Made by a program: the position numbers and the translations under genes. From an uncultured Fibrobacter sp. (GTDB lineage: Bacteria > Fibrobacterota > Fibrobacteria > Fibrobacterales > Fibrobacteraceae), in NCBI RefSeq assembly GCF_947305105.1, contig NZ_CAMZCS010000003.1, positions 62,001 to 126,000 on the forward strand: 64,000 bases of DNA, in the 5' to 3' direction. Each line of letters begins with the position of its first letter. The first letter of the stretch is position 1. Of the stretch, positions 53,119 to 64,000 are shown piece by piece. The notes under the pieces were generated by a model. It saw only the letters and a list, made by a program, of their open reading frames with translations. It was not told the DNA's origin and ran no database searches.

Positions 53119-53141
53119 GAAATGTAAATATAGAAATATGA

Positions 53142-53277
53142 GGCTCGGGGCACGAGGCTCGAGCAGTGAGTAATGAGTCATGAGCGATGAGCCGTGAGCA
53201 ATAACAACTTTTTCTCTCGTCTAATCCTAACCACTGCCTACTTCCTACTGTCTACTGTCTACTTCCTACTCCCTCAT
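53142..53277. repeat. Mixed low-complexity intergenic repeats
   Basis: 53142-53163 is GGCTCGGGGCACGAGGCTCG followed by ATGAG/GTGAG units to about 53203. 53228-53275 is TAACCACTGCCTACTTCC and CTACTGTCTACT units of the AACCACTG family. The first string recurs (20 of 22 bases) inside the receptor gene at 58367-58388. Confidence 0.8.
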
Positions 53278-53280
53278 CCA

Positions 53281-53309
53281 GTAACACTTTCTCCCTCTTC
53301 CGGTGTTTA
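53281..53309 (+). promoter_or_regulatory. ECF-type promoter motif, copy A
   Basis: GTAACAC (53281-53287), 15 bases, GTGTTTA (53303-53309). It lies 21 bases before the flavodoxin-family gene. Same spacing as copies B and C. Confidence 0.7.
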
Positions 53310-53330
53310 ACTCCAAAAAGGATTGCAAAA

Positions 53331-53930
53331 ATGAACATTTTAGTATTGAATGCGAGTCCGCGCAGGCGCGGGATGACTTCACAGGCGTCGGAGTGCTTTG
53401 TTGAGGGCGTAAGGTCTGCAAGCACCGATGATTTTTCTAGCGAATCGGTCCATGTGGATGTTCTGAACGTGAACGACCTGAATTTTTCCCCTTGCAAGGC
53501 GTGCCTTTACTGCCGCAAGCATGGCAATTGCTGCCAACCGGTAGATGATGCCCACAAAGTTGCAGAGCTGGTTCGTGCCTGCGACGTGCTAGTGGTGGCG
53601 GCTCCGGTCTATTGGGGCAACATCCCTGGGGTGCTGAAGACGCTTTTCGACCGCTTGGTGTATGTGCTGATGGGCGAGACCAAGGTGGGGATCCCGATTC
53701 CTAAACACAAGGGCAAGCAGGCCTATGTGATTACGAGCTGCACGACCCCGTTCCCGTTCGACGTGCTATGCGGGCAGACAACCGGTGTTTTTCGCGCCCT
53801 CAAGGAGGTTTTAGGGACATCCGGGTTCAAAATTTGCGGAAAAATTGCAATTCCTGGGACGCGAAAGCTTCAGGAGCTCCCCGAACGGGTAGGCAAGAAA
53901 GCCTATAATATGGGTGTGCGCTGTGTTTAA
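53331..53930 (+). CDS. Flavodoxin-family NAD(P)H:FMN reductase-like protein
   Basis: 199 aa. NILVLNASPRRRGMTSQ is the FMN phosphate loop; CKACLYCRKHGNCC (about 56-69) is a Cys-rich motif seen in one branch of this family; VVAAPVYWGNIPGVLKTLFD follows. Flavin-dependent reductases of this kind act on quinones, iron complexes or disulfides. AAAGGA precedes the ATG. The promoter motif ties it to the ECF sigma factor next door, suggesting a redox-stress response. Confidence 0.8.
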   Translation: MNILVLNASPRRRGMTSQASECFVEGVRSASTDDFSSESVHVDVLNVNDLNFSPCKACLYCRKHGNCCQPVDDAHKVAELVRACDVLVVAAPVYWGNIPGVLKTLFDRLVYVLMGETKVGIPIPKHKGKQAYVITSCTTPFPFDVLCGQTTGVFRALKEVLGTSGFKICGKIAIPGTRKLQELPERVGKKAYNMGVRCV

Positions 53931-53947
53931 GACCCGATGCCATTCTC

Positions 53948-53978
53948 CTAACCACTAACCACCAACCACTAATCACTA
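53948..53978. repeat. AACCACTAACCACC repeat before sigma gene
   Basis: CTAACCACTAACCACCAACC-type units end 16 bases before ECF promoter copy B; the sister array 53228-53275 ends 6 bases before copy A. Confidence 0.75.
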
Positions 53979-53993
53979 TTTTCTAAATTTGAG

Positions 53994-54022
53994 GTAACAC
54001 TTTTGACCTCCATTGGTGTTAC
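53994..54022 (+). promoter_or_regulatory. ECF-type promoter motif, copy B (autoregulatory)
   Basis: GTAACAC (53994-54000), 15 bases, GTGTTAC (54016-54022), only 6 bases before the sigma ATG, so the mRNA is near-leaderless. Confidence 0.75.
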
Positions 54023-54028
54023 ACAGGC

Positions 54029-54532
54029 ATGGAAAGGACAAATCCCGCAGACCGCATGGCATTATCGAAACTCTACGAGGCATACGCCCCGATGGTTTTC
54101 CGCCGCTCCATGATGCTCTTGAAGGACGAATCCGAAGCCGAAGACATGGTGCAGAACGTGTTTTTGCGCGTGTTTGAACGCTGGGACAGCCTGGATGTAT
54201 CGCAGCCGTCGAGTCTTTTGTGGAATACGGCGACGAGGCTCTGCCTCAACCGTATCCGCGACAAGAAACGCCGTGGGCTCGATTGCAATACGAGTGAACT
54301 GCTTCTCTCTATTGCTTGTGCCGACGATGAACAGGACTCTTTCGAAGCGAAAAACCTTCTCGCAAAAATTTTTTCGCGGGAACAGGAATCGACAAGGACT
54401 ATTGCGGTGTTACACTATGTAGATGGCATGACGCTCGAGGAAACTGCCCGCGAGGTAGGACTTTCGGTGAGTGGCGTGCGCAAGCGCTTGCGTGGTTTGC
54501 AAGCCAAGGTAAAAAATCTGGAGGTAAAGTGA
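54029..54532 (+). CDS. ECF RNA polymerase sigma factor
   Basis: 167 aa. Region 2: LYEAYAPMVFRRSMMLLKDES and EAEDMVQNVFLRVFERW. Region 4: GMTLEETAREVGLSVSGVRKRLRG (about 133-156) with the HTH. A group-4 sigma factor that probably reads the GTAACAC-N15-GTGTT promoters, including its own. The stop overlaps the anti-sigma start by one base (TGATG), so the partners are made together. Confidence 0.9.
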   Translation: MERTNPADRMALSKLYEAYAPMVFRRSMMLLKDESEAEDMVQNVFLRVFERWDSLDVSQPSSLLWNTATRLCLNRIRDKKRRGLDCNTSELLLSIACADDEQDSFEAKNLLAKIFSREQESTRTIAVLHYVDGMTLEETAREVGLSVSGVRKRLRGLQAKVKNLEVK

Positions 54533-55326
54533 TGATCCCCGATTGGAAACTGGAACGATACTTGACGGGCGACCTGCCCGAAAGCGAGATGCGCGAGATT
54601 CGCGAACTCGAGCAAAAGGACGAGATTTTCGCCCAGCGCGTGAAACTCATGCGCGAAGATAATGCGGCGATTCTCCGCAAGATGCCTTTTGAAAGGCTTT
54701 CCGAAAAACTGGATGCGATGCCGGAACGTTCGAATTCTGCAGGCAATATGGTGCCTGTGAATTTCAGGCTCGTGAAGTTCGCTGCCGCTGCGGCCTTTGT
54801 GCTTGCGGTGGTTTCTGTTGCGCTGTTCAGCCAGCGCGAGATTGCCAGCCAAGGTGTTGGCGGGCAGCTCGCAAGCGATGGCTCTGCGGAATCTGCAATG
54901 GAAGTCGCGATGGTCGATGAGGATAACGGTACGCGCATCAAGGGCATGGATGCCCGCATGGAAGTTTGGAAAAAGACGGGGGACAGTGCCGTGCAGATGC
55001 AGAATCTGGACGCTGCCAGCGAAGGCGACGAAATCCAGTTGCGCTATTCTGTGCCCGAAAAATGCTACGGGCTCCTCTTTAGCATGGACGGCAACGGCAC
55101 TATCACGATGCATATGGGCGACAATAATCGCGCCATCGTACTTGAACCTGGCAAGATGACGACTCTCCCGTTCGCATACAAACTGGACAATGCTCCGAAA
55201 TTCGAAAAGTTCTTCTTGCTAACGTCAAAGGCGGGTTTTGCTGTCGATGTCGACAATATTGATGCCGTGTTCAAGAACAAGGAAATAAGCAACGTATCTA
55301 TCACGTTGCACAAGGTGGCGAAGTAG
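54532..55326 (+). CDS. Anti-sigma factor with DUF4384-like C-terminus
   Basis: 264 aa. Cytoplasmic N-terminus (about 1-80; LERYLTGDLPESEMREIREL, related to anti-sigma zinc-finger-type domains but without clear HxxxCxxC), one membrane helix (FAAAAAFVLAVVSVALFS, about 83-100), and a periplasmic domain of ~150 residues. Its LRYSVPEKCYGLLFSMDGNG resembles DUF4384, often linked to caspase-like proteins. GGAGGT precedes the ATG. It probably holds the sigma factor and releases it on a periplasmic signal. Confidence 0.75.
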   Translation: MIPDWKLERYLTGDLPESEMREIRELEQKDEIFAQRVKLMREDNAAILRKMPFERLSEKLDAMPERSNSAGNMVPVNFRLVKFAAAAAFVLAVVSVALFSQREIASQGVGGQLASDGSAESAMEVAMVDEDNGTRIKGMDARMEVWKKTGDSAVQMQNLDAASEGDEIQLRYSVPEKCYGLLFSMDGNGTITMHMGDNNRAIVLEPGKMTTLPFAYKLDNAPKFEKFFLLTSKAGFAVDVDNIDAVFKNKEISNVSITLHKVAK

Positions 55327-55334
55327 GAGGATGT

Positions 55335-57746
55335 ATGAAGAATTTGCTGAAGAAAATAGCGCTTTGTGATTTTTATACGCAGTCGATTGTCATTTGTTTT
55401 GTGTGCCTTGCGGCGTTGCTCGTCCTTGCTGGCAAGGCGAATGCCTCCGAAGGGCAAGGGCCGATTGCGATTGACCGCTACGTTTTTGCGGTGAGTGCGA
55501 ATAACGGTGGCAAGGATCGCCCGAAGTTGCGTTATGCTGAATCCGATGCGCGTTCCTTTGCAAATGTGCTTTCCCAGATGGGTGGTGTATCGAAGCAGAA
55601 CATCATGATGGTCAAGGAACCGAAAGTCGCCGATTTGCAGCGCGAGCTCAATGCCTTGGACGAGAAAATCCAGGCTGCGCGAGCCAAGAAGAAAACGGCG
55701 GGTGCCGGTAGTTCTCGCGAAGAGGTGCTGGTGTACTACAGCGGCCATGCCGATGAAAAGGGACTGCGTCTCGGTAACGAACTGTACGGTTGGCAGGAAT
55801 TCCGCAAGCGCATTGATGCCTTGCATGCCGACGTGAAGATTGCCGTTATCGATGCATGCGGTTCCGGTGCGATTACCCGCCTCAAGGGCGGTGTGGCAGT
55901 GCCTGCGTTCATGGTGGACCAGAGCAGCGACATGAAGGGTTACGCCTTTATCACGAGCAGTACGCAAGACGAATCGAGCCAGGAAAGCGATAAGCTGAGG
56001 GGATCCTTCTTTACGCATTCCCTGGTGAGCGGTATGCGCGGCGCCGGCGACCTGAGCGGCGATGGCAAGGTGACCTTGTCCGAGGCCTACCAGTTCGCTT
56101 TCAACGAGACTTTGCAAAAGACCGAGACGACATTGGGCGGTGCCCAGCATCCGAGCCGCGACATGAACCTTGCCGGTACGGGCGATGTGGTGATGACGGA
56201 TCTGCGCAGTACAAGCGCTGGGCTGGAACTGGACGAAGACGTAGATGGCCGCCTGTTTATCCGTGACGAGAAAGGTGAGTTGGTCGCCGAACTTTACAAA
56301 AAGGGCGGACGTGCCATGAGCCTCGGCTTCCCGGCCGGTAAGTACAACATTCGCCTGGAACGCCCTGCCGAATACAAGGAAGCGAGCGTTACTCTCCAGG
56401 ACAACTACCGTGCCCGTCTTTCGCAGAAGCAGTTTGCACAGGTTTCTACCGAAAAGACGACGCTCCGCGGCGAAATCGGGAAGGCGAACCGTACCGATTC
56501 TGTGCAACATTCCCTGGACTCTTTGGATCATAACGGAAAATATCGTGTGACGTTCAATCTTGTGGATACCGACAAGGAACCCCGCAAGGGCATGCAGTAT
56601 GGCCTTTTCGCTACCATGACTCACGACTACATGCTGGGTTCGCAGGTAAGCTTGTTTGCAAATGCGGCGAAAAAGGAAATTCACGGCATGCAGCTGACGT
56701 TCGGCTTGAACATGGCCCGCGACAGGATTGAAGGTGCCCAGGCATCTACGGTTTTCAATTACGCTGGCGAGTTCGATGGATTGCAGGTCAGTTTCGTGAA
56801 CGTCGTACGTAACCCCTCCCACGGTATGCAGCTGGGATACGTAAACTTCGGTGCCGACACGGTGAGCTTTATGCAGGCGGGTTTTGCCAACTACATGAGG
56901 CACGGACGGTTCGGTTTTGGTTTTCTCAATGTGGGCGTAACTTCGTCGGGCCTGCAGGCAGGCTTCGCTAACGTGGCCAGGGACTCTTCGAATGTCCAGG
57001 TCGGCTTTGCCAACTACATGGGGCACGGACGGTTCGGTTTTGGTTTTCTCAATGTGGGTGTAACTTCGTCGGGCCTGCAGGCAGGCTTTGCTAACGTGGC
57101 CAGGGACTCTTCGAATGTCCAGGTCGGCTTTGCAAACGTGAACGGCGGTACTGGTGGGGTGCAGATCGGCTACGCGAACTACGAGAGGCATGCGACTAAT
57201 CGCCAGATAGGTTTTGTGAACGTCTGTGCAAAATGCGAGAAGACGCCGATCGGTTTCTTGAGCATTGTCGGCAATGGCGTGTGGTCCGCAACGACTTCCA
57301 TGAACGAAATGGGCGCACTCGATCTCGCACTTCGATTCGGAACGGCCTATTTCTTCACCTCGTTTGAAGGCGGGCGCCTTATCGAAAAAGGTACGGAATT
57401 CGAACACTTCAGCGATGTGTATGAAAATGGTGTCGGTTTCGGTACGCAGTTCGGCAAGTACGGAAGCCACGCTGAACTGGAATACATGTTCCTGAATATA
57501 TGCAAGGGCAGGATGTTTGACGACGATGTCGGCTATCACCACCGTCTGCGCCTGGGCTATACGAGCCAGCTTGTTCCGCTTGTCGGCCTTTCTATCGGGG
57601 GAACGCTCAACATGGCTACTATTGGCTACGGTGACGGCATTTACCTGAAGCCCCTGAGCGAATACCACGACGACTTCGGCTCCGAAAAGCACAAGGCTCG
57701 CTGGTGGCCTGGCTTCTACGCCGGTTTGACCGTCGGAAGGTTTTAA
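55335..57746 (+). CDS. Secreted caspase-family protease with surface-repeat C-terminus
   Basis: 803 aa. Signal/anchor helix at about 20-36, then a C14 caspase-like domain: strand VLVYYSGHAD (catalytic His 138) and IAVIDACGSG (catalytic Cys 175). Next is SFFTHSLVSGMRGAGDLSGDGKVTLSEAYQFA, typical of bacterial caspases (shown as two adjacent motifs SFFTHSLVSG and LSGDGKVTLSEAY). Residues about 420-660 are GFAN/GFLNV surface repeats of the LA_2272 type, and the C-terminus looks like a beta-barrel end (LRLGYTSQLVPLVGLSIGG). GGAGG start, 8 bases after the anti-sigma gene. Probably outer-membrane anchored, with the protease in the periplasm. Confidence 0.85.
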   Translation: MKNLLKKIALCDFYTQSIVICFVCLAALLVLAGKANASEGQGPIAIDRYVFAVSANNGGKDRPKLRYAESDARSFANVLSQMGGVSKQNIMMVKEPKVADLQRELNALDEKIQAARAKKKTAGAGSSREEVLVYYSGHADEKGLRLGNELYGWQEFRKRIDALHADVKIAVIDACGSGAITRLKGGVAVPAFMVDQSSDMKGYAFITSSTQDESSQESDKLRGSFFTHSLVSGMRGAGDLSGDGKVTLSEAYQFAFNETLQKTETTLGGAQHPSRDMNLAGTGDVVMTDLRSTSAGLELDEDVDGRLFIRDEKGELVAELYKKGGRAMSLGFPAGKYNIRLERPAEYKEASVTLQDNYRARLSQKQFAQVSTEKTTLRGEIGKANRTDSVQHSLDSLDHNGKYRVTFNLVDTDKEPRKGMQYGLFATMTHDYMLGSQVSLFANAAKKEIHGMQLTFGLNMARDRIEGAQASTVFNYAGEFDGLQVSFVNVVRNPSHGMQLGYVNFGADTVSFMQAGFANYMRHGRFGFGFLNVGVTSSGLQAGFANVARDSSNVQVGFANYMGHGRFGFGFLNVGVTSSGLQAGFANVARDSSNVQVGFANVNGGTGGVQIGYANYERHATNRQIGFVNVCAKCEKTPIGFLSIVGNGVWSATTSMNEMGALDLALRFGTAYFFTSFEGGRLIEKGTEFEHFSDVYENGVGFGTQFGKYGSHAELEYMFLNICKGRMFDDDVGYHHRLRLGYTSQLVPLVGLSIGGTLNMATIGYGDGIYLKPLSEYHDDFGSEKHKARWWPGFYAGLTVGRF
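56884..57129 (+). repeat. 123-base tandem duplication in the caspase gene
   Basis: Two consecutive 123-base (41-codon) units, 56884-57006 and 57007-57129, differ at only a few positions. A third, partial unit follows. The frame is kept. Confidence 0.9.
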
Positions 57747-57761
57747 GTACTCCACAATCTC

Positions 57762-57791
57762 AAAGACCGCAAAACTGCGGTCTTTTTTTTT
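57762..57791 (+). terminator. Terminator after the caspase gene
   Basis: AAAGACCGCA-AAAC-TGCGGTCTTT and a further six T. Confidence 0.95.
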
Positions 57792-57800
57792 TGCAAATAA

Positions 57801-57829
57801 GTAACACATTCATCTTTATCAGGTGTTAC
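57801..57829 (+). promoter_or_regulatory. ECF-type promoter motif, copy C
   Basis: GTAACAC (57801-57807), 15 bases, GTGTTAC (57823-57829), 51 bases before the TonB-dependent receptor gene. Confidence 0.7.
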
Positions 57830-57833
57830 AAGG

Positions 57834-57863
57834 GCAAATAGGGTTTCCTATTTGCTATTTTTT
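57834..57863 (+). other. Terminator-like hairpin at the 5' end of the receptor mRNA
   Basis: GCAAATAGG-GTTT-CCTATTTGC followed by TATTTTTT. It starts about where transcription from copy C should begin, so it would sit at the extreme 5' end of the message: an attenuator or a stabilising 5' stem-loop. Confidence 0.6.
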
Positions 57864-57880
57864 ACTAAAATACGAGAATT

Positions 57881-60451
57881 TTGTTGAAAATCTATACTGG
57901 CATTATCGTTTTGTTGGCGGCTCTTGCCGCCATGGCACAGGAGCCGAGCGCGTCCGATGCCGTTGTTGGAGATTCTGCGAAGGTTCAGGGAATTGTTTTT
58001 AACGGCGTGGTGCAGGATTCTTCCTTTGCTGCGGGTGAAAAACTGAATGTGGAAATCCTTGAATCGGGCGAGGCTTTGCAGACGACAGTCGGCACGCCTT
58101 TCAGCGTCGTGCTTCCCGAAGATACTCTCTGGAACATTTGCGTTACCAATTCCGATACGGCGGGTGCCGAGAAGGAAAAATGCTACGAACTTGTGTATAC
58201 GGGCTCCGAAGGCAGTTTCTCGCAGGCATTGGGAGAGGCTTTTGTAGACGAGAGCGCAGAGACGAAAGACGAGAGCGTGGCTCAGGGACCTGATTCCGCC
58301 AAGGTCGGTGCCAGTGCTGAGCTCGGCCGAAGCAAGCCTGCCGAACCGACCACTGCCAAGACGGAGGGCTCGGGGCCCGAGGCTCAAGACTCGAAAGATT
58401 CTGCACAGGCAAAAAAGCCCGCCGAGGACGTGGATGTGGACGCGCTTCTTGCCGGGGGTGACAACACGAAGGTCACCGAACTCAAGAAAGTCGTGGTGCA
58501 GCTGCGTCGCCGTCCCAAGCGCAAGCCGGGCGAATCCGTTGTGACCGCGAAATCTATCAAGCGCATGCCGGGCCTTGCCGAAGCGGACGTCATCAAGAGT
58601 GTGCAGGCGCTCCCGGGCGTGGTCGCGAGTTCCGATTTCAGTTCCAAGATTTACGTGCGCGGTGGTGCCGCCGACCAGAACCTCTTCTTGTTCGACAACG
58701 CGGTGGTGTATTCCCCGGTGCATTTCTTCGGCCTGTTCAGCACCTTCCTCGTGGAAGGCATCGACGACGTGCAGTTCTACAAGAGCGGTTTCCCGGCGCA
58801 GTACGGCAACCGCCTGAGTTCCGTGCTCAAGATGGACGGACGCGCCGGTGGCCAGGACACAGTCAACGAGTGGTTCAGCAAGTCAAGTCTCAAGATAAGC
58901 ACGTTTGCCGCACAAGCCCACACCGAAGGACACCAGGGCCCGGCCCGCTGGGTGTTTGCAGGACGTACCACCTACATCGGCTACATGCTTGACCTCTGCA
59001 ATGCTATCGGCATTCTGGACCTGGAACTAGATTACGAATTTACGGACTTGCAGGGCACGTTCATGTACAACTTTACTGACGATACACGCATCAAGTTCAG
59101 CTACTATGTGGGTAAGGACCGTCTGAGTTTTGATCCTCTCTACATGGACTGGGGTAACATCGCCATTCCGTTGAATTTCTACCATCGCTTTAACGGGAAC
59201 TGGGATTACAATATGACTCTCGCATTCAGCGAGTTCTACCAGACCATGAAAATTAGCGATCTCATGTCTATCGAGATGTACCTCTACACCTTTGCCGGTA
59301 AGCAGTGGCTGAATTACCGCGGCATTGCTAACCACACGATAACCTTTGGCTACGAATTGGAATACGACTACGAACGTTACCAGGAAGCCATCGCCACGAT
59401 AAGCATTACCGATATCCAGAAGCCGTTCCACCATGTGGCCTACTTGCAGGATGCCTGGAAGTTTGCTCCCGATTACCTGTTGCAATACGGCATGCGCTTC
59501 AATTACCAGACGGCGGCTGAACACTTCGGTGTCGAACCCCGCGCCTCCTTCACGGTCAACGTGGACGAGAACAAGACGGTTGAACTGTACGGTGGCTATT
59601 ACCTGCAATACTTGAATTCCATCGTCTACACCGACCAGGAAACGCTGAACGAATTCTATTATCCGGCGACGACCACGACCAAGGGCAAGCATATCAAGCC
59701 CGCGTCTTCGTGGCTGTTTGCCGCGGAATACAGCCAGCGCAACATCTTCGAGGATTACGATGCGACCGTAGGTGTCTATTACAAGACGCAGAATAACTTG
59801 AACACGTTCCAGGCGGTGCTCGACAGCAACGAGGAAACGGCTTCGGACGACTTCGTGATTGCCGACGGGTTCGGCACGGCGGAAGCTTATTCCTTTGGTT
59901 ACGAACTTTCTCTGCGCAAGGATAGGGGCTGGCTGTTTGGCGGTATCAACTGGAGCCAGAGCATCAGCGTCGCCAAGACTCATGACGGTTCTAAACCCTA
60001 TTTCCCCAGTTGGCATCAGCCTTACGCGCTCAAGATGGATGCGGGTATCAACTGGAAGGGCGACGAGAACTCTCTCCGGAAACACAGGAAAAAAGGCCGC
60101 TATTTCCGCTCTTCCGTGATTCTCAAGTACTCTGCAGGCATGCCTATCAGCGAATACCTGGGCTACTACTATCCCGAAGAAATTGGAAGCCAGCAGTACT
60201 CGGACGAAATTACGGTGTTGCCGGGTAGCCGCAATGCCGGGCGCCAGACGGATTACTTCCGCATCGACGTGAAACCGATCGATATTGGAAAAGAAGACAA
60301 GTGGAATTTCAGTTGGACGATCATCAACTTGACAGACCACGAAAACATGTTCTACACATTCTACGATACGAGCAAGAACCCTCCCAAGAAGACATCCATC
60401 GCGCAGTTCCCCTTTTTACCGATAATGGTTAGCTATGAATATTATTTCTAG
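57881..60451 (+). CDS. TonB-dependent receptor with disordered linker
   Basis: 856 aa, TTG start. Signal peptide (MLKIYTGIIVLLAALAAMAQ), an N-terminal beta domain (about 25-110), a low-complexity linker (about 115-205) rich in Ala/Glu/Ser, then the plug domain: ELKKVVVQLRRRPKRKPGES, RMPGLAEADVIKSVQALPGV and KIYVRGGAADQNLFLFDN. The rest (about 330-856) is a 22-strand-type barrel ending in F (SYEYYF). It lacks an obvious TonB box, as in SusC-like proteins. The substrate is unknown. Its promoter suggests control by the ECF sigma factor. Overlaps the next gene by 17 bases. Confidence 0.85.
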   Translation: MLKIYTGIIVLLAALAAMAQEPSASDAVVGDSAKVQGIVFNGVVQDSSFAAGEKLNVEILESGEALQTTVGTPFSVVLPEDTLWNICVTNSDTAGAEKEKCYELVYTGSEGSFSQALGEAFVDESAETKDESVAQGPDSAKVGASAELGRSKPAEPTTAKTEGSGPEAQDSKDSAQAKKPAEDVDVDALLAGGDNTKVTELKKVVVQLRRRPKRKPGESVVTAKSIKRMPGLAEADVIKSVQALPGVVASSDFSSKIYVRGGAADQNLFLFDNAVVYSPVHFFGLFSTFLVEGIDDVQFYKSGFPAQYGNRLSSVLKMDGRAGGQDTVNEWFSKSSLKISTFAAQAHTEGHQGPARWVFAGRTTYIGYMLDLCNAIGILDLELDYEFTDLQGTFMYNFTDDTRIKFSYYVGKDRLSFDPLYMDWGNIAIPLNFYHRFNGNWDYNMTLAFSEFYQTMKISDLMSIEMYLYTFAGKQWLNYRGIANHTITFGYELEYDYERYQEAIATISITDIQKPFHHVAYLQDAWKFAPDYLLQYGMRFNYQTAAEHFGVEPRASFTVNVDENKTVELYGGYYLQYLNSIVYTDQETLNEFYYPATTTTKGKHIKPASSWLFAAEYSQRNIFEDYDATVGVYYKTQNNLNTFQAVLDSNEETASDDFVIADGFGTAEAYSFGYELSLRKDRGWLFGGINWSQSISVAKTHDGSKPYFPSWHQPYALKMDAGINWKGDENSLRKHRKKGRYFRSSVILKYSAGMPISEYLGYYYPEEIGSQQYSDEITVLPGSRNAGRQTDYFRIDVKPIDIGKEDKWNFSWTIINLTDHENMFYTFYDTSKNPPKKTSIAQFPFLPIMVSYEYYF

Positions 60452-62117
60452 AATGCTTGTTGTGTTTGCGCTTATGCTGGGGGCTTGTGGTGATTTCCAT
60501 GGGCCGTGGGACTACTATCCCGAAGAGCGGGATGTTTATCTGGGTATTTACACGTATGGGTATATTATGCCCGAGGAAAATTCGCACATCTGCTTCTCGA
60601 AAGTTTACGCTTTGGATGAATCGTCTGCGGAGGACTTCATTTTTTACGACAGTGCCTATGTGACGGTAAGTGGGCGTTTCTCAGTTTATGGAGAAAGAAT
60701 TATTGACACCACTATGGTCTTGCAACAAAGCGGTTCGCCAAATTGTTTTAAAGATTATAATGGTAAAGGCGTCGTGGGTGAAACTTACACGATGGAAGCT
60801 TATTTCGTTTGGGATAGCGCGGGCCATACTGCAAAATCCAGATACAAGGCTGAAGCGAAAATACCGGAAGCCGTCCGTGTCAAGGGCCTGAACGTTCCGC
60901 AGCAGGATGGAAGTTACAAGTGGATGGAATATGACAAAAATAAGGAGATCACTGTCCAATTCTTGGAATTTCCGATGGATATGGAATTCATCAAGTGCGC
61001 CTTGGATTACGACCATTCTGTGCGCGGAGTCCTTTCTGTGATGAACTATGGGATTGAAGAAAACGCGGAATCGCAAAAGACGACTATTAACCAGATGCTC
61101 AAGGGGTTGACCGAAGAGGATTCACTAGGGTATAGGGGCATAGCCTTGCATGATCCGCTCGAGACTTCGCAAAATTTGGGCTATACGTCGAATTCTAAGG
61201 TGGCGGACTACTATGCACTCGATACGCTTTACCTGATGAACATGATGATGCCCTTGGGAAAAATCTCGGTGGATTTCTATGCAACCGATGCGGCCTACAT
61301 TGACTATGAAAGTAAGGTGAAGGGCTCGGTGAGCGATTCCAGAATTATTCCGGAATCCAACATCGAGAACGGCATGGGGGTCTTTTCTGGGATGGCAAAG
61401 ACGACGATTGAGTTGTTTGTCGAAGGAACTGGGGTGAATATGTGGTATATTGCTTCAAAACAGTGTCATAATGAGAAAGGTGATTTTTCGGATAGTTGGG
61501 ATTCAAAGGCATGCAGGCTTTATAAGGATGCAATTTGTGCGGGAGATGAAAACTTGGATACCTGGCAGGATGGTTTAATGGGTGCCAACAAAAATGCTTA
61601 CAAACTGTACAGAGATAGCGTTCCCAATATAGCAGTCAGGTCATGTTATGCTTCACATGTGAAGGCGGCGATGATGCTCGATACAACCAAGTGGTCTATC
61701 TTTTTGCCGGATACGATTAATGAAAAAGATAAAAATAATGCTTATGGCGATGGTCTGAAACGTTATTGCGTGGCAAGCAACTTTGAGAGCAACCATATTG
61801 CGGATTGTACGGAAATGTATGAACAGTGCATAGAAAGCCCTGAAAAGAACAACTGCAAGGAATATTTGTGGATGTGGTGTGCCGACCGGGATTGGGATAC
61901 AAGGGAATATCCGCAGTGTAATTCTGCACTTGTGAGTCGTTACTATATCGAAAAGCCGAAATCAAACATATTGAAGCGGGAAGTGGAAACTATTTGTAGT
62001 TATTATTGGAATGAAGATGTCAAAGAAAAGGACAAAGTGAAGACTGTCTATCACTTGAGAAACCGTTCTTGTGAAAATTGGTGTAAGATGGATGACAAGG
62101 GGTTGGAATGCCAGTGA
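60435..62117 (+). CDS. DUF4249-like lipoprotein partner of the receptor
   Basis: 560 aa. Signal with lipobox LGAC; N-terminal ~230 residues resemble the DUF4249 lipoproteins that accompany TonB receptors (a beta-sandwich with YVTVSGRFSVYGERIID and GVVGETYTMEAYFVWDSAG). The second half is Cys-rich (more than ten Cys in the last ~180 residues, e.g. CTEMYEQCIESPEKNNCKEY) and unrecognised. Starts inside the receptor gene end. Probably a surface-exposed lid or ligand-binding partner. Confidence 0.65.
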   Translation: MNIISRMLVVFALMLGACGDFHGPWDYYPEERDVYLGIYTYGYIMPEENSHICFSKVYALDESSAEDFIFYDSAYVTVSGRFSVYGERIIDTTMVLQQSGSPNCFKDYNGKGVVGETYTMEAYFVWDSAGHTAKSRYKAEAKIPEAVRVKGLNVPQQDGSYKWMEYDKNKEITVQFLEFPMDMEFIKCALDYDHSVRGVLSVMNYGIEENAESQKTTINQMLKGLTEEDSLGYRGIALHDPLETSQNLGYTSNSKVADYYALDTLYLMNMMMPLGKISVDFYATDAAYIDYESKVKGSVSDSRIIPESNIENGMGVFSGMAKTTIELFVEGTGVNMWYIASKQCHNEKGDFSDSWDSKACRLYKDAICAGDENLDTWQDGLMGANKNAYKLYRDSVPNIAVRSCYASHVKAAMMLDTTKWSIFLPDTINEKDKNNAYGDGLKRYCVASNFESNHIADCTEMYEQCIESPEKNNCKEYLWMWCADRDWDTREYPQCNSALVSRYYIEKPKSNILKREVETICSYYWNEDVKEKDKVKTVYHLRNRSCENWCKMDDKGLECQ

Positions 62118-62197
62118 TTGCTTCGATGGAAATTTTGTTATGGATGGGAATTTTTACGGTGACAAATGAGTTAGGCTTAGGTGTTTAGAAGGTGATT

Positions 62198-63025
62198 ATG
62201 AAAACAAGAGTATTATTGACTGTATTTTTCCTTTTGGCGGGTGCGGCCTTTGCGGATCGCAGCTCGGAAATTCAGGATCTCAAGCTTGAAAAAGAAAAGC
62301 TGAATTCCGAAATCCAGAAGCTGAACCGGCAGATTGCCGCGACGGATTCGATGCTCAAGGCAGACGATTCCCGTTACAAGACGCTGCAGCAGCGTTACAA
62401 GGCCGATACGGAGCGCCGCCGTGCCGAAATCGACAGCTTGAACGCGAAAATCCGCAATGTCGCAGAACAGTTGCAAGACGAACGCGGCAAGCAGGCGCGC
62501 GCCAAGAACCGTAGCGAAAACGTCGCGGCAAAGCGCAAGGCCTTGCGCTCGGCGCTTTCCGCCGTCTGCCGCCAGCTGGAATCCCAGGTGGCCCAGACGC
62601 TCCCCTGGGAACGCGACACGAGGCTCGACCGCGTGAAATCCCTGACCCGCGATATCGAGGGCGGGAACGCCAGCGAAGAAGAAGCGTTTTCTCGCCTCAA
62701 GTCGCTTATCGCCGAAGAAACTCGGTTCGGCGACGAGGTGGCGATCATCAACAGCCCGCTCACGCGCAAGAACGGCGAACTCATCAACGCCTCGATATTG
62801 CGCATCGGGAACCAGTGGATGGTCTATAGTGACGACAATGGAACTGTTTTCGGTAGCCTTGTGCGCAAAATCGAGAACGGTAATATCGTTTACGAATGGA
62901 ACGAAGATTTGAACTTGGAAGAACGTGCCGCTGTCAAGCTCGCGATTGATGTAAAGCAGGCGAAAAAGCCGCCTCAGGTCGTGAAGTTGCCGGTGAGCCT
63001 CTCTGTTGTGGGAGGTGGAAAATGA
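62198..63025 (+). CDS. DUF3450-family periplasmic protein
   Basis: 275 aa from ATG 62198 (AGAAGG upstream). Signal peptide to ADR; long coiled coil (about 20-115; IQDLKLEKEKLNSEIQKLNR) then the DUF3450 C-terminal part (VAQTLPWERDTRLDRVKSL and NASILRIGNQWMVYSDDNG). In TonB2-type clusters the equivalent gene stands directly before ttpC. Predicted to link TonB energy transfer with a dedicated receptor. Confidence 0.75.
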   Translation: MKTRVLLTVFFLLAGAAFADRSSEIQDLKLEKEKLNSEIQKLNRQIAATDSMLKADDSRYKTLQQRYKADTERRRAEIDSLNAKIRNVAEQLQDERGKQARAKNRSENVAAKRKALRSALSAVCRQLESQVAQTLPWERDTRLDRVKSLTRDIEGGNASEEEAFSRLKSLIAEETRFGDEVAIINSPLTRKNGELINASILRIGNQWMVYSDDNGTVFGSLVRKIENGNIVYEWNEDLNLEERAAVKLAIDVKQAKKPPQVVKLPVSLSVVGGGK

Positions 63026-63126
63026 GAGATAAGAGACTAGAGGCTAGAGGCGAGAGATTAGAGACGAGAGACGAGCGGTTCGACAAGCTCACCGACCTTA
63101 ATAAGGGCCCTGAGCTTGCCGAAGGG
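63022..63126. repeat. GAGACGAGAGAC repeats and an inverted REP pair
   Basis: 63022-63075 is GAGATAAGAGACTAGAGG-type low-complexity sequence. 63076-63095 and 63108-63126 are REP-like elements (TTCGACAAGCTC and GAGCTTGCCGAA) in opposite orientation that can pair. Together they fill the gap before the TtpC-like gene. Confidence 0.8.
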
Positions 63127-63150
63127 TCCGTCAAGTTGCTCGAAGGTTTT

Positions 63151-64000
63151 ATGAAGGTGTCGTTGGTTTTGGTTCTCCTGGCGTCGTCGGCGTTTGCTTG
63201 GCCGTGGTCATCGAAAGAGAAAAAGCCGACTGCTGAAGACCAGGAACGCATCAAGGATTCCCTACAGCTCGAAGAAGTCCGCTCGCTGCAGCGCGAAGTC
63301 GAAACGCTGACCCGCATCCGTTTGCAGAAGGCCGACTCGCTCGAAAAAATGGAAGCGGAACACTGGAAAAAGCGCTACGCTGAATCGCAACTGACCGAGG
63401 AACACCAGGCAGAAACGCGCGAACTCGATGGCCGCTATTCCAAGCTCTCGACGGACTTGGGCCGCGTCAACGAAGAAGTGATGGCGAGCAAGAACGTGAC
63501 GGGCGAGGCCGAAGAAAATGCGAAGGCCGAAGAGTCCGCCTACGATGCGCTGAACACGCAGGTGAAGCTTTCTATCGACAAGACGCTCGGCGAGGTGACG
63601 GGCGACTATCCCGTGGGCATGAACGGCCGCCTGCTGCGCCTGAAGCAGGCCGCTGCCGAGGCCGATGCGCAGAACCCGAACACGCTGGGTGCTGCCCGCG
63701 GTTACCTGACGGATTTGCTTTTGCGCCAGGAACTGACCTACACGCAGTCTTACGGCCGCGAGGTTTCGCAGGTGGGCAACCGCCCCGATGTGAACGTGAA
63801 CCGCTTGCGTCTCGGTACGGTGTTCCTGGGCGAAGTCGCCGTGGACAATGGCGAAGTGCAGGCATTGCTCCGCTCGGGTGCTTTGCAGGGCAAGGTGTTC
63901 GAATGGAATGCAAATCTTCCGCCCGAAATGGCCGCGAACGTGAAGCAGGCCGTGACGCTTGCTCCGGAACACACGATTGTGAACATTCCGCTGGATGTTT
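63151..64000 (+). CDS. TtpC/ExbB-type energy-transduction protein, partial (3' end beyond window)
   Basis: 283 residues seen, frame still open at the window end. From ATG 63151: signal peptide MKVSLVLVLLASSAFAWPWS, then a long coiled coil (about 30-115) and a TtpC-like beta domain (VGQVGNR-type motif VSQVGNRPDVNVNRLRLGTV, GEVAVDNGEVQALLRSGAL). TtpC proteins are the large ExbB-like subunit of TonB2 systems, with proton-channel helices expected after the window. A reading from 63022 would place the signal inside a repeat tail and is rejected. Follows DUF3450, the usual order. Confidence 0.75.
   Translation, partial: MKVSLVLVLLASSAFAWPWSSKEKKPTAEDQERIKDSLQLEEVRSLQREVETLTRIRLQKADSLEKMEAEHWKKRYAESQLTEEHQAETRELDGRYSKLSTDLGRVNEEVMASKNVTGEAEENAKAEESAYDALNTQVKLSIDKTLGEVTGDYPVGMNGRLLRLKQAAAEADAQNPNTLGAARGYLTDLLLRQELTYTQSYGREVSQVGNRPDVNVNRLRLGTVFLGEVAVDNGEVQALLRSGALQGKVFEWNANLPPEMAANVKQAVTLAPEHTIVNIPLDV

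Follow-up and report, generated by a model that had tools for sequence, protein, structure and literature searches.

A predicted ECF sigma factor regulon that associates a caspase-barrel protein with a TonB-dependent uptake route in Fibrobacter

The stretch of DNA analyzed here, referred to as the window, comprises 64,000 nucleotides of a contig from an uncultured Fibrobacter sp., a gut bacterium, and from position 53281 onward it carries genes for an extracytoplasmic function (ECF) sigma factor, an anti-sigma factor and a secreted caspase-like protein, flanked by genes for a flavodoxin-like reductase and a TonB-dependent receptor (TBDR). These genes probably constitute an autoregulated sigma/anti-sigma envelope-response module, conserved throughout the phylum, the output of which would be an outer-membrane-anchored caspase together with a Ttp-type TonB uptake route. 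The existence of the regulon is strongly supported by the distribution of a single promoter-like pattern. The sequence GTAACAC-N15-GTGTT occurs exactly on the + strand at 53281-53307 before the reductase gene, at 53994-54020 before the sigma gene, where it is predicted to be autoregulatory, and at 57801-57827 before the TBDR gene, with distances to the start codons of 23, 8 and approximately 53 nt, respectively. No occurrence is expected by chance (0 in 100 shuffles of the window), and the same three places are the only matches in the whole 3.57-Mb genome that holds the window, across which a control with the reversed pattern gave 0 matches. The placement of the motif at the heads of three transcription units, as an earlier note on this DNA had described it, was thereby confirmed, and the motif proved to be unique to these units in the genome.

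The statement in that note that there are exactly three sites holds for the strict pattern but not for a degenerate fourth site, GTGACAA-N15-GTGTT (GTGACAAATGAGTTAGGCTTAGGTGTT), on the + strand at 62159-62185 directly upstream of a DUF3450 gene. When up to two mismatches were allowed, the genome gave 54+50 matches against 153+175 for the control, i.e., no enrichment; the strict sites therefore stand alone, and no larger regulon can be claimed except for the site at 62159. This site was picked from the two-mismatch matches as positionally meaningful, relatives possess an exact site at the same place, and it is likely to represent a decayed fourth promoter.

The conservation of the pattern was followed in 40 relatives in which the sigma locus was mapped and, for the motif only, in 41 Fibrobacter genomes. 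Upstream of the sigma gene, at least 11 of the 12 motif letters with a 15-nt spacer were present in 36 of the 40 loci, the consensus being GTRACAC-TTTT, followed by the rest of a spacer that ends in G and then by GTGTT-WNA; the spacer is 15 nt without exception. In all Fibrobacter loci, the sigma start codon lies constantly 8 nt past GTGTT (54016-54032 in the window), so that a leaderless sigma mRNA is predicted. The motif upstream of the FMN reductase gene is kept in all eight relatives that have the gene (five exact, three with one mismatch), and nearly all TBDR genes of the mapped relatives are preceded by the exact motif with a spacer of 15. Across the 41 genus genomes, GTRACAC-N15-GTGTT gave 142 matches versus 24 for the reversed control. 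Most, not all, of these matches were followed, which yielded 129 distinct contexts, 17 of them mirror readings of near-palindromic sites; among the remaining 112 non-mirror sites, 108 lie less than 200 nt upstream of genes of the regulon classes (sigma, 33; TBDR, 31; flavodoxin-like reductases, 20; DUF3450, 18; lipoprotein, 5; and YbjQ, 1). An extended −35 element, GTRACAC[TA]T[CT], places 103 of 103 genus sites upstream of these classes. Since this extension was picked after the sites had been seen, it was applied to 21 further genomes, where it gave 33 matches versus one control match. At least 27 of the 33 precede regulon-type genes, a count that includes a TonB-domain receptor-like gene (L224) and a repeat-barrel gene (L230) classed by translation. 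Most of the 21 genomes were reached through the anti-sigma factor, for which reason their sigma sites do not count as independent of that choice, in contrast to those before receptor, TonB and detached caspase genes.

The motif also stays with its targets when they are separated from the sigma gene. In several species, 9-13 kb separate the TBDR gene, which still has the motif ahead of it, from the sigma gene; in further species the receptor, lipoprotein, DUF3450 or reductase genes lie on other contigs and again carry the motif. Four more families of the phylum show these same targets. The motif is thus non-random in relatives, tracking the same genes through the genus and other families even where they have moved, and on this basis co-regulation of the caspase and the receptor is strongly indicated. 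The suggestion that the two are switched on together is supported, whereas the words "activates" and "signalling" in the earlier note go beyond it as interpretation. The sigma gene shares its promoter pattern, with fixed −35/−10 spacing, with the rest of the regulon, by which conservation argues for autoregulation, and the sigma factor itself may be what recognizes GTRACAC-N15-GTGTT promoters.

The order sigma, anti-sigma and caspase is found in all 40 mapped relatives except where loci are cut by contig ends. A search with the anti-sigma factor over 84,980 species returned 279 confirmed relatives, the best 80 of which were looked at; these include Myxococcota, Spirochaetota and Gammaproteobacteria, with a sigma gene upstream and usually a caspase gene downstream. 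The promoter was seen before the sigma gene in one Myxococcota and one Deltaproteobacteria record, and a Spirochaetota record shows the sigma promoter with a single T-tract change. Genomes of the Candidatus Fibrimonas type do not have the caspase gene beside the sigma gene. The detached caspase-barrel genes of four of these genomes (G065, G067, G068 and G070) have their own exact motif directly before the start, which lies approximately 9 nt past GTGTT and hence at a distance nearly as short as that of sigma, and a further genome (G075, locus L180) has an extra motif copy inside the operon, between the anti-sigma and caspase genes. In G069, the detached caspase gene lacks a strict motif match, and the sole C14 gene found in G066 is unrelated and of the cytosolic type. 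Because detached caspases carry their own motif, the caspase appears to be a true member of the regulon and not just an operon passenger.

The protein identities proposed for the window (FMN_red, ECF sigma, Peptidase_C14 and TonB plug) were all recovered by profile matches. The sigma factor (54029-54532, + strand; 167 aa) contains regions 2 and 4 (PF04542, E 1.2e-12; PF08281; TIGR02937, E 2.8e-22). The anti-sigma factor (54529-55326, + strand) was identified by profile matches and a structure model, in which N-terminal helices (residues 4-61) are followed by a transmembrane helix (79-103), a disordered linker (102-134) and a beta-sandwich (142-261). The periplasmic sandwich is Ig-like and well predicted, and its fold matches are generic sandwiches. 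This modeled layout fits a membrane-bound class I anti-sigma factor, for which sigma binding is predicted. Within it, K137-G138 is invariant and R135 is present in at least 90% of homologues. The anti-sigma profile NF052375 matches 28 of 35 homologues at E<1, the window protein being below its cut-off. Of 36 same-genus genomes, 35 have a single homologue of the anti-sigma factor, which occurs in other families of the phylum as well. The DUF4384-like sensor domain attributed to the anti-sigma factor in the earlier note is consistently hinted at, since 28 of 35 homologues give a DUF4384 (PF14326) match at E<1, the best value being 1.1e-4, but it is weak, and the window protein falls below the Pfam cut-off. 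Elsewhere, the DUF4384 domain accompanies caspases.

The third product of the operon is the caspase-barrel protein (55335-57746, + strand; 803 aa), which consists of a signal peptide, a Peptidase_C14 domain at residues 57-239 (PF00656, E 1.9e-10; 41.2 bits against a cut-off of 21.4), a small beta domain, LA_2272-type repeats (E 1.4e-11) and a predicted C-terminal barrel ending in GLTVGRF. The His138/Cys175 catalytic dyad is invariant in 33 of 33 homologues. In an AlphaFold2 (AF2) model, the caspase part matches the folds of caspase-6, metacaspase-9 and legumain, each with E about 0.02, and the barrel part, an 8-strand domain with strands in residues 649-802, matches NspA, OprF and OmpX. The terminal Phe is present in the Fibrobacter caspase homologues, and the barrel fold matches, the signal peptide and this residue together make it likely that the caspase is anchored in the outer membrane. 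A search of the PDB by sequence with the anti-sigma and caspase proteins gave no meaningful match. In three Myxococcus loci (L191:6811-7422, L201:6780-7364 and L202:6814-7431), the protease domain is gone; what is left is a secreted protein of approximately 200 aa with homology to the barrel at the C-terminus of a Corallococcus caspase (E 7e-54), which implies that a barrel lacking the protease domain still serves a function.

A possible course of events can be proposed from these features. At rest, sigma may be bound by the cytoplasmic helices of the membrane-bound anti-sigma factor. The periplasmic DUF4384-like sandwich could perceive an envelope event, most likely through contact with the co-encoded caspase-barrel protein, whereupon sigma would be freed to transcribe from GTRACAC(TTT)-N15-GTGTT promoters. 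Transcription of its own operon would provide more sigma, anti-sigma and caspase in a positive feedback, and the other targets would be the genes for the TonB receptor and lipoprotein, together with those for a TonB-ExbBD energizer of the Ttp type, and the genes for the flavodoxin-like reductases. The net outcome could be the joint switching on of one caspase anchored in the outer membrane and one active uptake route. Several observations weigh against this scheme. The sigma/anti-sigma pair occurs without an adjacent caspase gene in the Myxococcus and Fibrimonas loci, four of the 112 exact-motif genus sites precede unrelated sequence, and the reductase is a regulon member in some species only. 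The DUF4384 match of the window's anti-sigma factor is weak (18.8 bits against a cut-off of 27), and the caspase model is of limited quality, with a mean predicted local distance difference test (pLDDT) score of 75, a predicted template modeling (pTM) score of 0.45 and fold matches of E 2e-3 to 3e-2 (best 2.4e-3).

How the caspase relates to the release of sigma may be read in more than one way. It could be a pure output of the system, with sigma being freed by other proteases through RseP-type intramembrane proteolysis and the caspase processing periplasmic or surface proteins. This reading, which falls only a little short of being probable, is favored by caspase genes that keep the promoter when off the sigma operon, so that being induced is their conserved property, by the additional promoter ahead of the caspase gene within the operon of L180/G075, and by the Myxococcus loci in which sigma and anti-sigma accompany a lone barrel without a protease domain. 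Against it, the tight gene order conserved across phyla and the DUF4384-like domain on the anti-sigma factor suggest a partnership between the caspase and the anti-sigma factor. Such a partnership could be proteolytic: as a site-1 protease, the caspase would sense an envelope signal and cut the anti-sigma factor, for example after K137 at the junction of linker and sandwich. The invariant K137-G138 adjoins the disordered linker and is a candidate cut site, relatives of the C14 family of the orthocaspase type cut after basic residues (PMC6426788), and Craspase provides a precedent for a caspase-like protease that relieves sigma inhibition. The R-x-K-G sequence is also kept in loci without an adjacent caspase, however, and may be structural. 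The Myxococcus and Fibrimonas genomes without an adjacent caspase have C14 genes elsewhere, and since this is true of all such genomes checked, the retention of R-x-K-G there does not discriminate; the proteolytic reading is doubtful on balance. In a fuller version of it, which is regarded as rather unlikely, an event at the outer membrane would be detected by the barrel together with the surface repeats, the caspase would cut near K137-G138, and the freed sigma would bring about more caspase and the TonB route, in a pathway shared by lineages from Fibrobacterota to Myxococcota.

Other explanations place the sensor or the function of the motif elsewhere. Signalling of the FecA/FecR/FecI type, with the TonB receptor itself contacting the anti-sigma factor as the sensor, would agree with the receptor and its energizer being the most conserved targets after the sigma operon. 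In searches against Pfam at E up to 1, the receptor gave no STN match and the anti-sigma factor no FecR match, and the receptor is often far from the sigma gene, all of which makes this arrangement improbable. The motif could alternatively be not a promoter but a palindromic operator, bound by a transcription factor that acts as a dimer, given that sites 2 and 3 of the window (53994 and 57801) are near-palindromes, hence also readable on the − strand, as are about 15% of genus sites. Site 1 and most other sites are asymmetric, however, the T-tract follows the −35 side only, a conserved A stands three bases past GTGTT on the −10 side, and of all targets the ECF sigma gene is the most constant, its ATG lying at a fixed distance. 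The operator, which is very improbable in the light of these features, was rejected because the majority of sites are asymmetric. A caspase-like protease that adjoins an ECF sigma factor might suggest a Craspase/CASP-like module for immunity or abortive infection. This is scarcely credible here: no PADLOC match was obtained and no Cas genes or TPR-CHAT were seen in the mapped locus, the system is single-copy in nearly all species of the genus, unlike defence islands, and its outputs are TonB transport genes.

Operons that combine a sigma-70 and a metacaspase gene were noted in 2012 in Myxococcus, Anaeromyxobacter, Haliangium, Sorangium, Ralstonia and Fibrobacter (PMC3501461). They share with the present locus a sigma gene and a C14 caspase gene in one operon, and since Fibrobacter is named among them, the present locus is very likely of that kind. 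The word "undescribed" in the earlier note therefore holds for the system in part only. The operon section of that paper, within the part available, describes no anti-sigma factor, DUF4384-like domain, promoter, TonB regulon or caspase-barrel, and the promoter, the TonB regulon and the caspase-barrel architecture were likewise not found described in the main texts that could be searched. Caspase-like proteases and ECF sigma factors meet elsewhere, judging from the reports on ECF54, whose neighborhoods contain CHAT-domain proteins (PMC8999054), on EACC2-caspase neighborhoods (PMC8195603) and on Craspase (PMC10028731). In the TRADD-N/EACC2 neighborhoods, caspase genes are co-localized with ECF sigma genes and TPR genes are present too, and, as described in the portion of PMC8195603 that was available, they lack a DUF4384-like anti-sigma factor, a barrel and a TonB regulon. 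Craspase/CASP (Cas7-11-Csx29, Csx30 and CASP-sigma) similarly pairs a caspase-like protease with an inhibitor of an ECF sigma factor (PMC10028731); it is cytoplasmic, RNA-activated and CRISPR-borne, in contrast to the secreted, predicted outer-membrane-type and chromosomally conserved protein discussed here.

Among envelope systems, FecI/FecR/FecA and FpvA-type signalling likewise combine an ECF sigma factor, a membrane anti-sigma factor, a TonB receptor and an outer-membrane event, but they differ in having the STN and FecR domains that the present proteins lack, and the outer-membrane partner encoded beside the anti-sigma gene here is the predicted caspase-barrel protein. The RseA-DegS-RseP/sigma-E circuit has in common an envelope anti-sigma factor with one transmembrane segment and a periplasmic domain, as well as a protease in the circuit. 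That protease is a PDZ-serine protease, whereas here a caspase-fold protease is the candidate for direct cleavage, and the proposed cut would start regulated proteolysis as DegS does for RseA. The TonB cluster follows the order of Vibrio TonB2/TonB3 (TtpB-TtpC-ExbB-ExbD-TonB-TtpD), namely DUF3450, MotA/ExbB, ExbB, ExbD, TonB and TPR, and that of V. vulnificus TonB3 also begins with an outer-membrane receptor (PMC6957404). The Vibrio TonB2 operon is regulated by Fur and iron, whereas the present cluster is linked to a predicted ECF promoter.

What caspases do for bacteria is for the most part an open question, and here one family of them is tied to a sigma/anti-sigma pair and to TonB-dependent transport. 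The promoter tie, followed across dozens of genomes and several families, makes the inducing condition, substrate and location of the caspase directly testable. Few regulons are known in Fibrobacterota, and the rule GTRACAC[TA]T[CT]-N12-GTGTT has enough specificity for this one to be located in the phylum from sequence only. Should the caspase act on the anti-sigma factor, a new proteolytic route for envelope signalling would be at hand, and if it is a site-1 protease, transmembrane signalling would here be driven by a caspase.

The remaining features of the region all lie on the + strand. The first unit consists of the reductase gene alone (53331-53930), which encodes an NADPH-dependent FMN reductase/flavodoxin-like fold protein (PF03358, E 2.6e-20; PF02525, E 2.2e-16). 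The sigma operon is followed by a probable intrinsic terminator at 57764-57792, read from the sequence as GACCGCA-loop-TGCGGTC and then a T-run. In the 5' leader of the receptor gene, a hairpin of nine pairs (GCAAATAGG/CCTATTTGC, then a U-run) at 57834-57855 begins approximately 7 nt past GTGTT; it is 100% paired in 10 species, with compensatory changes in two pairs, whereas L072 and L083 have a different hairpin-like sequence in its place and L071, L073 and L102 lack it. It could be a 5'-stabilizing stem or an attenuator. The TBDR gene (57881-60451; plug PF07715, E 4e-7) overlaps at its end with the start of the gene for a secreted lipoprotein (60435-62117; lipobox LMLGAC), a putative receptor partner that is weakly DUF4249-like (PF14054, E 0.001, below cut-off). 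The DUF3450 gene (62192-63025; TtpB-like; PF11932, E 3.4e-22) opens the TonB-energizing cluster and is followed by a MotA/TolQ/ExbB gene (TtpC-like) that runs from 63022 to 64000 and extends beyond the window (genome context L006:8436-16401). Past the window lie ExbB, ExbD, TonB and TPR genes, the TonB_C match of the cluster's TonB being 0.6 bits under its cut-off. Speculatively, the flavodoxin-like reductases and one YbjQ heavy-metal-binding-type protein hint at metal or redox chemistry of the substrate of the TonB route.

Single motif sites were found before a gene for a YbjQ-family protein (L114:6672-6983) and before genes for alpha/beta-hydrolase-like and Cys-rich secreted proteins (L274 and L272), which are possible lineage-specific members of the regulon. 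Within the caspase gene, a near-perfect tandem duplication of 123 bp (96% match) at 56883-57137 adds one LA_2272-type repeat unit; the repeat number varies among caspase homologues, which suggests copy variation of surface repeats. The sole other Peptidase_C14 match in the genome that holds the window is at G000:C36:25797-26273 (L236). Short degenerate direct repeats (actaaccaccaaccactaatcac and tctactgtctacttcctac) occupy the intergenic spaces 53140-53275 and 53940-53990 before promoters 1 and 2, and text resembling them recurs elsewhere in the TonB cluster.

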